Positions 8,678 to 46,069 of a DNA stretch of 64,000 nucleotides are shown here, piece by piece. Each line of letters opens with the position of its first letter. Position 1 is the first letter of the stretch. Source of the DNA: Halococcus agarilyticus (lineage in GTDB: Archaea; Halobacteriota; Halobacteria; Halobacteriales; Halococcaceae); NCBI RefSeq assembly GCF_000334895.1, contig NZ_BAFM01000006.1, positions 1 to 64,000 on the forward strand, read 5' to 3'. The notes beneath the pieces are model-generated. The model ran no database searches and had not been told where the DNA came from. It saw nothing but the letters and a program-made list of their open reading frames with translations. A program made the translations under genes and the position numbers.

Positions 8678-9865
8678 TCAGGTTCCGTACACATCGGTGT
8701 CGGGGTTGAAATCGCGCCACGCGAAGAAGAACATGGGCGAGGCGTCGTTGGCCCGCGGGAGCTGCGTTCCCTCGTGGGGACCGTCGAGGGCCTCGCCGGT
8801 GGCGCGCCGCCACCGCGAGCCGCCGGCGCGCATCGCGTCCGCGCCCGCGGGCTCGAACGTCAGTTCGTCTCCATCGACGCGGCGCTCGTAGGCGACGAGC
8901 GCGTCGCCCGCATCGACCGTGACGACCACCGGGAGGTCGCCGACGCGGTCGTTGATCACGCCCTCACTCGTGACCGTATCGAACGGGTAGGCGCTCGCCG
9001 TCCCGTCGCGAGCGACCCCGATGACCTCGGCCTTCGGGTGGAGCTCCCCCTCGAACTCCTCGCCGCCGATGCCGATGCGCCGCGATTCGTCGTAGCCGGC
9101 GTAGGGGTCGCGGGCGTAGTCCCGCGGTCTCGCCCCGCCGATCGCCTCGGAGGCCGGCGGCGGGAGCAGGACCTCCGTGTCGGGGTGCGTCTCGCGCCAC
9201 GCACTCCACGCCGTCAGCGTCGAGGGGACCAACGAGAGCGTCTCGCCCGTGCTCGGCCCGCGGATGGCGGTCGCGAGGATCTGACTCCAGAGGCTGTCGG
9301 TCGCACGGTCGTACATCACGAGATCGCTGTTCCAGAGCAGGCCCGAGACGCCGAACGTTGTCTCCTCACCATCGACCCGGCGTTCGGCGGTGAGCCCGCT
9401 ACCACACAGCGGACAGTACGTCACCAGAAGAGGGCCGTCGAACTCGTCGTTCACGATCTCGTGCCAGTTCAGGACCGCGAGCGGGTACGCCCGCGCCTCG
9501 CCGCCGCGTTCGACGCCGATCACGCGCTCGTTCGGGTCGAGTTCGACCCCGAACTCGCTCCAGTCGGCTCCGAACGCGGGGTCGGTGATCGCCGGGATCG
9601 CGTCCTCCGATGCGCCACGGTCGAGCTCGCTTCTGGGGACGGGTAGCTCGACGTCGCCAGCGGACTGGGGCACGCCGGCCGCCGTTCCGCCGGCGGTGGT
9701 CGCGTTCCCCGGTTCGCCGGTGGCCGCCGAAGCGTCGGTGGCTGCCGAGGTGCCGGTCTCTCCGTTCGCTCCACGGGAATCGGAGCGGCCGGCGAGGCCC
9801 GAACAGCCCGCGAGCCAGACGGCCGTGCCGCCGGCGAGTCCGGACAGATAGCGGCGGCGATCCAT
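8678..9865 (-). CDS. DUF3179 family Tat lipoprotein
   Basis: The 395-residue protein starts MDRRRYLSGLAGG, a twin-arginine signal, with a lipobox LAGC near residue 20, then a Gly/Ala/Ser/Thr-rich linker to about residue 75. The rest fits DUF3179: ERVIGVERGGEARAYPL, LNWHEIVND and YCPLCGSGL are typical, and a second half has ARDGTASAYP. The family is extracytoplasmic and of unknown function; YCPLCG may bind a metal or undergo thiol chemistry. It diverges from the TlpA/CcdA pair, which would suit a shared thiol function (inference). A TATA-like TTAAC about 27 nt upstream supports ATG 9865; a GTG 12 nt further up is the alternative. Confidence 0.85.
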   Translation of the reverse strand: MDRRRYLSGLAGGTAVWLAGCSGLAGRSDSRGANGETGTSAATDASAATGEPGNATTAGGTAAGVPQSAGDVELPVPRSELDRGASEDAIPAITDPAFGADWSEFGVELDPNERVIGVERGGEARAYPLAVLNWHEIVNDEFDGPLLVTYCPLCGSGLTAERRVDGEETTFGVSGLLWNSDLVMYDRATDSLWSQILATAIRGPSTGETLSLVPSTLTAWSAWRETHPDTEVLLPPPASEAIGGARPRDYARDPYAGYDESRRIGIGGEEFEGELHPKAEVIGVARDGTASAYPFDTVTSEGVINDRVGDLPVVVTVDAGDALVAYERRVDGDELTFEPAGADAMRAGGSRWRRATGEALDGPHEGTQLPRANDASPMFFFAWRDFNPDTDVYGT

Positions 9866-22102: not shown

Positions 22103-24046
22103 TTAGCCTCTACCCGGCGGCCCTGTGGTAGCATCGAAGTAGACCGGACGAATGGTCCCATCTGTGAGGATGAACCAGTAGACGATGTCGGCCTCGGAGT
22201 ACGAACCGACAGCCCCTTCGAGGCGAACACCTCCTTGTGAGTCGAACCGTTCGAGTTGCACACGTGAATCAGTCACCGCTCCTTCTGAGGTGAAGTTGTA
22301 CACCGTGCCATCCAACTGAAGAGGAGTCTCGGATTCCTTTGAGAGGCCCGTCTGATAGATGAAGAAGTTGTGTGTTTTATCGCTGTGAGGTCTTTCTGTT
22401 TCCGTCACTCCCGAGAGAGCCCCCTTTGTCTCAATAGCGAAGGCAGTAATCTCGATCGGGTTGGGGCCGGAATCGGAGTCCGGATCGTTCGGTACCCCTA
22501 TTTTGAACGATGGATGGGTTCTACTCCGTGCAATTGCGGATGTATTAAGCGATGCCCCATCAACTTCACCAGGGTCGATCTTTTCGCCTTCCCGAGGTCC
22601 TTCATCGCTGGGGAACTCTAGATTGTATTCAACGGGGCCGTTTTCCGACCCGTTCGGAAGCGAGATTTCGACTGTTACCGTGCTCCCGCTGTCGGTATCT
22701 TCGGGAACATAGGTAAATGAAGTCTCCCCAGACTCGTTCGTAGAACTGCTGGTGAAGTTCAAGCTCCCAGCACCGTCTTCGCTAGCTTCGACATCAACCT
22801 TAGAGAGTGGGTTGTCCCCTTCATCTTGCACGCTTACAGCCAGTGTTTCTGGTTCATCGACAGACACCGAGGGAGATTCCGGCGATTCTCTGTAGATGTA
22901 CCGTTCCGGGTATTCCAACCCGAACGTGACGGAACTGTTCTCACCAGTCACGTTGGGGAGACTCGCAGTGACCCCGACCGTGCTTCCGATATCGCCGGCG
23001 TTCGGGTTATAGGAAACTGTCGTGTTGCCGTTCCCGTTCGATGTGGTGCTGGCCGTCGATAATCCTCCAGAACCGTTCGTACTCCACTCCACGTCGACAT
23101 CGCCGAGATCGCTGCCGAATATGTCCGTCGTGTGGGCAGTGAGTTCGGTATTGCTCTGGATGGACCCCACATCAGGATGGGTCGGGCTGGCGTTCGTGAT
23201 GCGAGGGTCCAGTCCGAGGTCGTCGTCATCCGGGTCCGGATCGCCGACCGATGCCTTATCGACAGCGAGTTGGGTGCCGTTTTTCAACTCAATCGTGACC
23301 TGATTGACGCCGGAGCCGGAGTTCGAATACATCCACCCGTCGACCTGGCTCTTATCCGTGAGTATCTCGTCCCAGCCCGCCTCGGGGAGCGTCGTCGGGA
23401 GGGTGAGCTCCCCGTCGCCCGACGTAATGTCGATGGTATGATTGTCGACGTTCGCCGGCGTAATTACCGTCGACATCTCGCTCGCCTGAAGATCGCCGGT
23501 CACCAACGGGAGATAGATGCGATCGGAACCCGAGAAGAGGACGCCTGACGAATCGAGGCGGGAGTCGCCCGGTCCCGAGTAATCCCGTATCAACATGCCG
23601 TGCTCGATGGAGTACGCCGTTTCTTCGTTCAGGCGGTTGTAGTTCGGCCGGTAGTTGATGAACGAAGTGTTGAGCGTCTCGGACCCATCCTCGCCCGAGA
23701 TCTCGATGGTGCGTGTTTCGGATGTTTGTATCGTTCCGACCGGCGTTCCTGGATTGATCGCGAGAGCACGGTCGGGATACTGGACGCCGAGCTGGACCGG
23801 CACCCCTTGTGGAACGGTATCTGGACCGGTAGAGCCGACCGCAGCACTCAACTGCTCCATATCGCCCGCGACCTCCTGGCTGTGCTTGAACTCGACCTCA
23901 GCGTTCTGTGCCGGCACCACGTCGGCCTGGTAGAGCGTGAACACCAGCATGATCAGCGCGAAGATCAACACGAACCCCACGACCGGTGAGACGCCGCGCT
24001 CGTCCTCGTGCAGCCGTTCCAACCGCTGTGTGATTTTTTCGAACAT
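22103..24046 (-). CDS. Large type IV pilin-like protein with Ig-like domains
   Basis: The 647-residue protein begins with a prepilin-type signal: charged residues to about 17, then DERGVSPVVGFVLIFALIMLV, the archaeal pilin/DUF1628-like helix that a PibD peptidase would cut before or near VSP. The exterior contains about 200 residues of unknown fold, then two Ig-like repeats (about 290-395 and 395-480) of the Big_1/invasin kind, each with VEWSTNGSG- or VEASEDGAG-like strands, and a C-terminal domain. At least ten N-x-S/T sites suggest N-glycosylation. It ends a three-gene operon after the pilus ATPase and platform protein, 4 bp from the latter, so it is probably a pilus subunit or tip adhesin. 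Its 3' part is A+T-richer than its neighbours. Confidence 0.75.
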   Translation of the reverse strand: MFEKITQRLERLHEDERGVSPVVGFVLIFALIMLVFTLYQADVVPAQNAEVEFKHSQEVAGDMEQLSAAVGSTGPDTVPQGVPVQLGVQYPDRALAINPGTPVGTIQTSETRTIEISGEDGSETLNTSFINYRPNYNRLNEETAYSIEHGMLIRDYSGPGDSRLDSSGVLFSGSDRIYLPLVTGDLQASEMSTVITPANVDNHTIDITSGDGELTLPTTLPEAGWDEILTDKSQVDGWMYSNSGSGVNQVTIELKNGTQLAVDKASVGDPDPDDDDLGLDPRITNASPTHPDVGSIQSNTELTAHTTDIFGSDLGDVDVEWSTNGSGGLSTASTTSNGNGNTTVSYNPNAGDIGSTVGVTASLPNVTGENSSVTFGLEYPERYIYRESPESPSVSVDEPETLAVSVQDEGDNPLSKVDVEASEDGAGSLNFTSSSTNESGETSFTYVPEDTDSGSTVTVEISLPNGSENGPVEYNLEFPSDEGPREGEKIDPGEVDGASLNTSAIARSRTHPSFKIGVPNDPDSDSGPNPIEITAFAIETKGALSGVTETERPHSDKTHNFFIYQTGLSKESETPLQLDGTVYNFTSEGAVTDSRVQLERFDSQGGVRLEGAVGSYSEADIVYWFILTDGTIRPVYFDATTGPPGRG

Positions 24047-43597: not shown

Positions 43598-43870
43598 GCG
43601 TTCGCCTCGCCAGCGACCGGGTTATGGGTTTCCCCGTTCTGGTGGGTAGTGTTCAGATAATCCTAAGAAGAATGCCCCGTCTGGAGCGACTAAAATAGTA
43701 ATTCTTCGCGGGGAAAGTGGCTTCTTCGGTCCGTTTCAACGACGGTGATAATCACATGCTTGTCGACTCATTCGGCCTGCAAAACTCTCGAAAGCCGAAT
43801 GAACATGAGTTACCGTCACAGTGCCGCCAAAATTGTTATTTAAAGGTCATTTCATTGCGAGCGTGGTTTT
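43598..43870. promoter_or_regulatory. A+T-rich leader with two hairpins before the dGTPase module
   Basis: No gene is accepted. An inverted repeat GAAGAAT/ATTCTTC (43667-43673 and 43701-43707) and a perfect 8-bp repeat CATTCGGC/GCCGAATG (43769-43776 and 43794-43801, 17-nt loop) are seen. The second lies about 35 bp before the TATA-like element and is well placed for an operator. A frame starting GTG 43717 overlaps the first gene in another phase and has no family likeness. Confidence 0.5.
43836..43844 (+). promoter_or_regulatory. TATA-like element of the dGTPase module
   Basis: TTATTTAAA is centred about 31 nt before ATG 43871, so transcription would begin within a few bases of the ATG. No Shine-Dalgarno site is present, in keeping with leaderless translation. 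Confidence 0.6.
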
Positions 43871-44143
43871 ATGTCGGAGGAGTATTTAGTGAGTCATGTA
43901 ATGGCCCCGTCGTTCATGCGTCACAGGGAAAGTGTAGGTGAGCTAGACGAAGACATAGCGGCGGAGCTCATGGATCTGATAGAGGAAAACCCAGCAAAAC
44001 CCTGGACAATCGTTTCAAGAGTTTCTAATCAGTTAGACCAGAATCCGGACCAAGTTCGCGAAACGCTCCGGCAGCTAACGCTCCAAGGAGAAGTCACTCC
44101 CACGGCGGATGGCGACCTCCGAAAAGCTCTCGTCGAAGCGTAG
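43871..44143 (+). CDS. Small winged-helix-like protein next to dGTPase
   Basis: The 90-residue product starts MSEEYLVSHVMAPSFMRHRES. The segment DIAAELMDLIEENPAKPWTIVSRVSNQLDQNPDQVRETLRQLTLQGEVTPTADGDL reads as a winged helix (three helices and a wing), like MarR/PadR-type or FaeA-like small regulators. The family is not certain. It lies 8 bp before the dGTPase gene, so it is translated from the same transcript. It may regulate the operon, sense DNA, or act as a partner of the hydrolase. Its A+T-rich codons match the dGTPase and not the surrounding genes. Confidence 0.65.
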   Translation: MSEEYLVSHVMAPSFMRHRESVGELDEDIAAELMDLIEENPAKPWTIVSRVSNQLDQNPDQVRETLRQLTLQGEVTPTADGDLRKALVEA

Positions 44144-44151
44144 GCCGGTCT

Positions 44152-45864
44152 ATGAATTCTGAGCGCCGATACGGAACACGAATACTGGGTGTTGGAGATA
44201 ACGACGACTCTGAGAATGAGGATCCGGTTGTAGAAATCGAGAAACCGAATACTACGAGCGACAAGCCACAGTCAGAGGATCAGAGCGGTCGATCACCATT
44301 TCAGCGAGACTTAGATCGGATTAAGTATACCAAGGAATTTCGCCGGTTGAAAGATGTCACTCAAGTAGCGCGTGCAGGTGAGTCGTACTTATACCATGAT
44401 CGACTAAGCCACTCATTAAAAGTAGCTCAGGTTGGTCGCCGATTTGCAGAGTATGTTATCCAACAGGAGGAGGGGACGCATACAATTTCTCGTGAACTTG
44501 ACCCAGATATGATTGAAGCGGCTTGCATGGCCCATGACCTTGGTCACCCACCATTCGGGCACCTAGCGGAATCAACACTTGATAAGTTGCTTCAAGAGAA
44601 AACGAATCCTTATCGGAAAGAGAACGATCTTGACCCTACGCTTGGGGAACTCCCCGAGAATCTTGATGCGACCGATGCTGATAACATCGATGCATATCTA
44701 CAAGTGAATTCTGACGAACTTGCAGGTATCCGATTTGAAGGAAATGCACAATCATTGCGTATCCTCACCCGACTCGCGACCCATCGCGATGCGTATACAG
44801 GACTTGCGCTCACTGTTGGCGTCTTGCTGGGTGTTGGAAAGTACCCATACGGACGTGGAGAATGGTTCAACCCAGACGCTCACAAGAGTCTGGACCCATG
44901 GCCAGACGAACCAAAATCGGTTGAGGGATTCTCTAAAGGGAAATTTGGATTCTACGAAGATGATGAGAACATCAACAAGGCGGTAAGGTATGCTGCAGTC
45001 GAAGGGGATGAATCGATTTCCGGTCGAGCAGCCGCAGCAGGAATCATGGATTATGCGGATGACCTCACATATGCTATCCACGATCTAACAGATTTCTATA
45101 TGGACGGGCGACTTCCATTGGACCGGTTGCTCAGGGAAGCGTTCGCAGAACTAGATGAGAAAGATCAGGAAGGCCTTGAAGAAGCAGATTACGAGCAGGC
45201 CCCTCGACGTGAACTTGAAGAACTACACAGAGAACTTGAATACGATGAGGAGATCACGACGCCAACCGAAGTCATAACATCACTAGCCACCTCAGCGATA
45301 ATAACCGGAGAGAATGTATCTCTGCTTAATCCATTTGACGGAACTCCCCAGCAACGGAACGAACTTGAAGCATTCACCTCGTTCCTAATCGAGTATTACC
45401 TCAACCGAATCTACTATGATGATGAATCCGATCACGAGCTGGTAGATACAGATGATGCGTATATCTCGCTCCGATTTGGTGAGCAAGAGTGTGAACTCTA
45501 TCTTTCCGACCGACTCGAGGAACAACTGAGTATCCTCCAACAGATCACAAAGTACTATGTAATTCGCCAGCCCTCATTGATAGCCCAGCAACGCGGGCAG
45601 CAGCGAGTTGTCCGTGAAACATTCGAAGCGCTATACGACGAGGCTAGCAAGGATGACCTCAGCTGGTCAGCGGTTCCTACACCTTACCGTAACTGGCTGG
45701 AAACCGAACATAGCCATGTAGGTAATCTAGGCAACGATGCGGAGAAGAGAGCACGTGTAGTCGCCGATTTCATTACGTCGATGACCGAACCACAGGTTGT
45801 GGCACTCCACAAACGGCTTACTGGGGACAACCCGGGATCACTCCAGAACGAAATTATTCGGTGA
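44152..45864 (+). CDS. dGTPase-family HD-domain hydrolase
   Basis: The 570-residue protein is a deoxynucleoside triphosphate triphosphohydrolase. The metal site can be read: His in DRLSHSLKVAQ, His-Asp in AHDLGHPPFGHLAE and Asp in MDYADDLTYAIHD. FEGNAQSLRILTRL and YTGLALT/KYPYGRGEW match the dGTPase substrate region. It splits dGTP (or dNTPs) into nucleoside and tripolyphosphate. The N-terminal ~55 residues are acidic and disordered; the insert of about 330-370 is Glu-rich. It is longer than E. coli Dgt (505). Codon use is A+T-richer than its neighbours, which suggests transfer. dGTPases can protect against phage by draining dNTPs; that role here is inference. Confidence 0.88.
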   Translation: MNSERRYGTRILGVGDNDDSENEDPVVEIEKPNTTSDKPQSEDQSGRSPFQRDLDRIKYTKEFRRLKDVTQVARAGESYLYHDRLSHSLKVAQVGRRFAEYVIQQEEGTHTISRELDPDMIEAACMAHDLGHPPFGHLAESTLDKLLQEKTNPYRKENDLDPTLGELPENLDATDADNIDAYLQVNSDELAGIRFEGNAQSLRILTRLATHRDAYTGLALTVGVLLGVGKYPYGRGEWFNPDAHKSLDPWPDEPKSVEGFSKGKFGFYEDDENINKAVRYAAVEGDESISGRAAAAGIMDYADDLTYAIHDLTDFYMDGRLPLDRLLREAFAELDEKDQEGLEEADYEQAPRRELEELHRELEYDEEITTPTEVITSLATSAIITGENVSLLNPFDGTPQQRNELEAFTSFLIEYYLNRIYYDDESDHELVDTDDAYISLRFGEQECELYLSDRLEEQLSILQQITKYYVIRQPSLIAQQRGQQRVVRETFEALYDEASKDDLSWSAVPTPYRNWLETEHSHVGNLGNDAEKRARVVADFITSMTEPQVVALHKRLTGDNPGSLQNEIIR

Positions 45865-46069
45865 TCGCACTTTGATAAAGTAGCTGGTCGTTAGCAGGTT
45901 CTGGTGACCATATCGGAAATGGTCTCTGTGATCAGCACGCCACTCCTGACAACTGCTGAGGGTTTCGGCGGAACCAACCGGACAACTACCTCGGCAGGGG
46001 ACTCCCGACGAACACCGTTTCCGGTGTCGCCAGTAGACTTATTCGGTCACGCGGCCCAAATTCGCCAGC
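45865..46069. other. Intergenic region between dGTPase and DAO genes
   Basis: A short hairpin GACCAT/ATGGTC (45906-45911 and 45919-45924) could end the dGTPase transcript. A TATA-like ACTTATT about 28 nt before ATG 46070 serves the next gene. No gene is seen; composition returns to GC-rich over this stretch, marking the island edge. Confidence 0.45.

Follow-up and report, generated by a model that had tools for sequence, protein, structure and literature searches.

Layout of the Locus

The locus described here consists of two genes on the forward strand of a haloarchaeal draft genome (3.48 Mb), lying within a 64,000-nucleotide stretch of DNA that was analyzed as a whole and that we call the window. 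The upstream gene (43871–44143, +) encodes a 90-aa protein modeled by AlphaFold as a winged helix, with positional homologs upstream of archaeal and bacterial relatives of its neighbor; the downstream gene (44152–45864, +) encodes a 570-aa putative dGTP triphosphohydrolase (dGTPase) with an HD domain and an HD-associated C-terminal domain. An ORF check agrees with the first-pass annotation of this DNA that the two reading frames are 8 nt apart and that no further gene lies between the flanking genes; the start coordinate given there, 43598, takes in ~270 nt of intergenic DNA. The pair had also been described as richer in A+T than the genes around it, and these are in fact the two most A+T-rich genes of the window, with GC of 0.489 and 0.524 and GC3 of 0.45 and 0.55, as against means of 0.670 (SD 0.047) and 0.854 (SD 0.092) for the window's genes, with which GC and codon use were compared. 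The third most A+T-rich gene of the window (22103–24046, −; GC 0.57) encodes a protein whose N terminus resembles archaeal type IV pilin.

A TATA-like promoter element, TTATTTAAA (43836–43844, +), is located ~30 nt upstream of the small gene and is the probable leaderless start of a two-gene transcript. This candidate, first picked out from one sequence, gains from comparison: of 14 archaeal loci, counting the window, 9 have a TATA-like site equally far upstream of the small gene, vs. 2.7% at shifted positions. Its spacing ahead of the small gene, together with the short intergenic gap, points to a single leaderless transcript with the small protein encoded first. The palindrome reported upstream held up in part. 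An inverted repeat with 9-nt arms is present (43768–43776 and 43794–43802), but it lacks conservation and repeats as good arose in 4 of 40 shuffles; we therefore rejected it as a conserved operator.

Is the larger protein a dGTPase? It scores 226.6 bits against TIGR01353, the dGTP triphosphohydrolase family (cut-off 152.35), lies above the cut-offs of both PF01966 (HD) and PF13286 (HD_assoc), and matches the PADLOC dGTPase model at 252 bits (E = 3e-75; the library gives no curated cut-off). It falls short of NF041026, the NCBIfam model for anti-phage dGTPases (188.7 vs. 400 bits). The first-pass annotation had recognized dGTPase motifs in the sequence, and these are not peculiar to it: H87, H128-D129, H137, E140, and an ADD motif are present, and HD, HxxxE, and ADD do not vary among 14 aligned haloarchaeal sequences. 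The best match in the PDB, by sequence and by fold, is 9p8w, the anti-phage dGTPase of Shewanella putrefaciens; the predicted model of the enzyme, built with 14 sequences, is moderately confident (mean pLDDT 64). From family membership and conserved residues, the enzyme is predicted to hydrolyze dGTP.

An Inserted Cargo with Patchy Distribution

The genes that flank the pair are adjacent in two genomes of the same genus (G005 and G099), where they are 91–95% identical to those of the window. In a blastn comparison of the locus, homology to these genomes stops near 43644 and restarts near 45968–45989, and the DNA absent from both, which we treat as the inserted cargo, extends approximately from 43650 to 45960. 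The slot holds a 314-aa gene in G005 (GC 0.43) and an oppositely oriented 250-aa gene in G099 (GC 0.46). Because the two genomes carry different A+T-rich genes at this place, the slot between the two core genes is a cargo hotspot. Neither of these other cargos has a Pfam or PADLOC match; each is a possible defense gene, the 314-aa one (L188, 2025–2969) with one hydrophobic N-terminal segment and the 250-aa one (L189, 3218–3970) on the opposite strand. At the edges of the window locus there is no integrase and no convincing repeat, the direct repeats being short and at chance level only, and the nearest tRNA is 3.4 kb away.

How widely is the enzyme distributed? Any dGTPase match was found in 30 of 394 genomes of the order, 14 of them full length or nearly so (window included); the remainder comprise a truncated gene (L048) and 15 weak matches (E above 1e-14) covering ~100 residues. 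The nine same-genus and eight other same-family genomes searched have no match, so at this locus the dGTPase does not count among the core genes. Searches of two bacterial orders found pair-type enzymes in 2 genomes out of 298 in one and 3 out of 201 in the other, counts that include the seed genomes. The genomes of Martelella, Novosphingobium, and Tabrizicola contain additional, more distant matches to the dGTPase family at other places, and the pair-type enzyme is thus accessory in them. Relatives of the pair are found on plasmids and prophage contigs, and integrases are nearby at five loci (L036, L038, L039, L052, and L054). Overall, horizontal acquisition of the pair is supported.

The Salinirubellus salinus plasmid NZ_CP104004.1 carries a second, interrupted dGTPase block (L045, 2409–3467; G308:C2) besides an intact copy near 195 kb, and the neighbors of the two copies match, which suggests a duplicated segment with a decayed enzyme.

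Conservation and Co-inheritance of the Pair

Does the small gene accompany the dGTPase elsewhere? An ORF of 64–93 aa stands directly upstream, on the same strand and usually across a gap of 6–24 nt, in all 15 archaeal loci that could be read (the window, L035–L044, L046–L048, and L166, the dGTPase start being ambiguous at L041; L034 was excluded, as it lies at a contig edge). Among other genes of at least 200 aa in the same loci, 8 of 197 have a 60–100-aa neighbor within 150 nt upstream, and chance occurrence of the small ORF was rejected on this comparison. A gene of the same size is found at the same place in the nearest bacterial relatives, Martelella, Paceibacterota (matched by position only), Altererythrobacter, Nannocystis, Pseudomarimonas, Novosphingobium, and Tabrizicola, as well as on five IMG/VR contigs. 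A profile from the seed set also finds the small gene (E = 5e-7) at L199, a locus that had no part in building the profile.

In a maximum-likelihood tree of the dGTPases, the pair-bearing enzymes form an archaeal clade and a bacterial sister clade, with one more row besides. The pair label requires 3 changes on this tree vs. 22.1 when labels are shuffled, a test in which L034 was entered as a pair with its upstream side out of view. Distances among the small proteins track those among the dGTPases (r = 0.75 overall, 0.72 in archaea, and 0.80 in bacteria), and none of 2,000 permutations gave so high a correlation. The clustering on the tree, the tracking distances, and the conserved arrangement together indicate that the two genes travel and evolve together. 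The possibility left by the first-pass annotation, that neither the pair nor its 90-residue frame would recur in other genomes, can thus be set aside, the frame being conserved in position and fold.

Another clade of dGTPases, borne by phages, is preceded on three viral contigs (L146, L161, and L162) by a shorter ORF of a different kind (..ELKTLRxxIEQSTGKWSLT..), and partnered dGTPases may therefore be commoner than thought.

A Small, Divergent Protein with a Predicted Winged-Helix Fold

The AlphaFold model of the 90-aa protein has three helices and a short beta hairpin, i.e., a winged helix, with a core pLDDT of ~89. The nearest folds are the DNA-binding domains of the IclR, DtxR, and MecI repressors (none below E = 0.001). 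No NCBIfam or PADLOC model matches it, and its Pfam, PHROG, and PDB profile matches are weak and mostly to generic winged helices. A first scan of the genome contigs with the single sequence as query returned no match. The archaeal small proteins are highly divergent, with 11–53% identity to that of the window; what they have in common is the pattern of a winged helix with a short wing, in which a position is often aromatic. Many archaeal members have a neutral to acidic recognition helix, several bacterial ones a basic one.

Leave-one-out profiles recovered most of the small proteins near the top of 14,860 ORFs. That of the window was recovered only at E = 0.25; it is assigned to the family by fold, position, and identity (52–54%) to an orphan homolog at L049. 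Profile transfer between archaeal and bacterial small proteins is weak as well, and part of the case for conservation of the pair accordingly rests on position and fold. The orphan (L049, 9986–10225, −; G067:C13) has no dGTPase nearby; its neighborhood includes a PADLOC HEC-06 match and genes resembling an Mre11/Rad50-type pair. In genome G293, only a fragment occupies the matching place (L050, ~9242–9364).

Neighboring Genes and the Case for Defense

The pair was initially flagged as a candidate antiviral island, and in other genomes several of its relatives stand beside defense genes. Defense-type neighbors occur at 7 of 16 archaeal loci and at one bacterial locus, a raw count of neighbors picked by eye before the scan and therefore suggestive only. 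The neighbors were identified by PADLOC, Pfam, and deposited annotation. The pair at L043 is embedded in a BREX locus, with PglX on one side, BrxC on the other, and PglZ also present. A CBASS cyclase and a TGT adjoin L044, and a CBASS-type TGT-like gene adjoins L034, the nearest relative. L035 is found among HmaB-like methylases and an HmaC-like ATPase, and L037 with two type II methylases. A class I Argonaute and its nuclease are near L048, where the dGTPase is truncated, and an Argonaute lies ~6.5 kb from L166. At the bacterial locus, L054, the neighbors are a type ISP restriction enzyme and an integrase. The genes immediately flanking the pair in the window, which lay outside the PADLOC scan, look metabolic, and no defense gene was recognized among them.

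dGTPases serve nucleotide homeostasis too, and the genome of the window has no other dGTPase match. Both facts would suit a housekeeping operon that balances dNTP pools and has no part in defense. We consider such a role very improbable, as the pair is patchy, A+T-rich, situated in a hotspot, and absent from same-genus and same-family genomes, while its relatives occur on mobile elements and are adjoined by several unrelated defense systems. A role of the pair in defense, to which the neighbors and the related enzymes that have been tested both point, is in our judgment probable.

Comparison with Known Systems

How does the pair relate to described dGTPase systems? A dGTPase can serve as an effector against phages, and a partnered dGTPase is already described in the two-gene defense system Clover, which has another kind of partner and is not archaeal (PMC12265719). 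Like Clover, the pair is a two-gene module of a dGTPase effector, a role that the window enzyme fits, and a dedicated partner; the HD and HxxxE residues are present in both, and CloA structures are among the Foldseek matches of the haloarchaeal dGTPase. The partners differ, however: CloB, a nucleotidyltransferase, produces an inhibitory nucleotide, whereas here the partner is a winged-helix protein of 64–93 aa encoded upstream, and no nucleotidyltransferase lies between the flanking genes of the window. In Clover, the CloA dGTPase on its own is toxic, and the nucleotide made by its partner restrains it; within the literature examined, restraint of anti-phage dGTPases is known in detail only for this system (PMC12265719).

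The single-gene anti-phage dGTPases (DefenseFinder/PADLOC, NF041026, and SpdGTPase, 9p8w) belong to the same enzyme family. PADLOC would label the window enzyme a dGTPase system, and the small gene matches none of its models; the system so labeled is a single gene without a partner, in contrast to the partner gene at every readable archaeal locus here. Three annotated anti-phage dGTPase regions (Agrobacterium vitis, Sphingobium fuliginis, and Moraxella osloensis) have no small winged-helix partner, and the haloarchaeal profile gives far lower scores for their enzymes, which lie outside the pair clade. In the KTQ motif, the pair clade and its nearest tree neighbors have V or I in place of the K found in most of the others.

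The pair also resembles type II toxin–antitoxin systems in gene order, fold, and gap: a small gene with a DNA-binding-like fold comes first, a larger and potentially toxic enzyme follows after a short gap, and the whole is mobile. It differs in that no known toxin or antitoxin family is represented. No description of the pair was found in the literature searched, which included PMC12265719, PMC12839542, PMC12988326, and PMC9090908 and did not include Tal 2022, the original anti-phage dGTPase paper. The pair probably represents a known antiviral strategy in a two-component form not described before.

What Does the Small Protein Do?

Set beside the conservation of the pair in archaea and bacteria, its co-inheritance, its patchy mobile distribution, and its several defense-gene neighbors, all computed here, the reading we prefer is that the two genes make up a single mobile antiviral module that depletes dNTPs, with the winged-helix protein as its dedicated regulator; we hold this to be an evenly balanced proposition. 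In such a module, the active dGTPase would drain dGTP and starve viral DNA replication. Made first, and from the same leaderless transcript, the small protein would most likely bind the enzyme, and possibly its own promoter too, keeping the dGTPase quiet until infection in the manner of an antitoxin. Restraint at the protein level is plausible, if somewhat short of an even prospect, in view of the gene order, of how small and divergent the winged-helix protein is, and of the fact that the Clover dGTPase is toxic when unrestrained. More tentative still is the full scheme, an undescribed two-gene form of dNTP-depletion defense common to archaea and bacteria: the fast-diverging winged-helix protein would silence the dGTPase by direct action until a viral cue displaces or inactivates that small protein.

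The small protein might instead be a transcriptional autorepressor that never contacts the enzyme, the dGTPase then being the known single-gene anti-phage effector. This alternative draws on the resemblance of the fold to repressors, on the position of the small gene as first in the transcript behind a conserved TATA-like site, and on the basic recognition helix of several bacterial members. We nonetheless think it unlikely, since the promoter has no conserved inverted repeat, the wing is very short and often has an aromatic position instead of basic residues, and the recognition helix of many archaeal members is neutral to acidic. Non-basic helices speak against promoter binding in those members, leaving a predicted protein–protein role, and with the missing promoter repeat they incline us slightly toward such a role.

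Rather improbable, in our view, is an activating subunit or sensor of viral nucleic acid or viral protein that switches the dGTPase on. The strong divergence of the small protein relative to the enzyme would suit a sensor, as would its weak profile similarity to winged helices that bind nucleic acid, Z-DNA-binding domains among them, and a solved Escherichia coli dGTPase structure (4x9e) holds two DNA effector molecules. An antitoxin would show divergence too, however, and an inhibitor fits the gene order and size at least equally well.

Some observations sit less easily with a single module under a dedicated regulator: the metabolic look of the window's immediate neighbors, the existence of the L049 orphan, the absence of a small gene at the tree neighbors L059 and L064 (and of a recognizable one at L058, where the reading frame is broken), and the failure to find any natural protein in which the small protein and a dGTPase are fused.

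If the proposed module is real, the small winged-helix protein would be a second, unrelated kind of dGTPase partner, implying that restraint of dNTP depletion arose with different parts. The pair occurs across haloarchaea, proteobacteria, a myxobacterium, and prophages, and it would offer a candidate for nucleotide-depletion defense in archaea.
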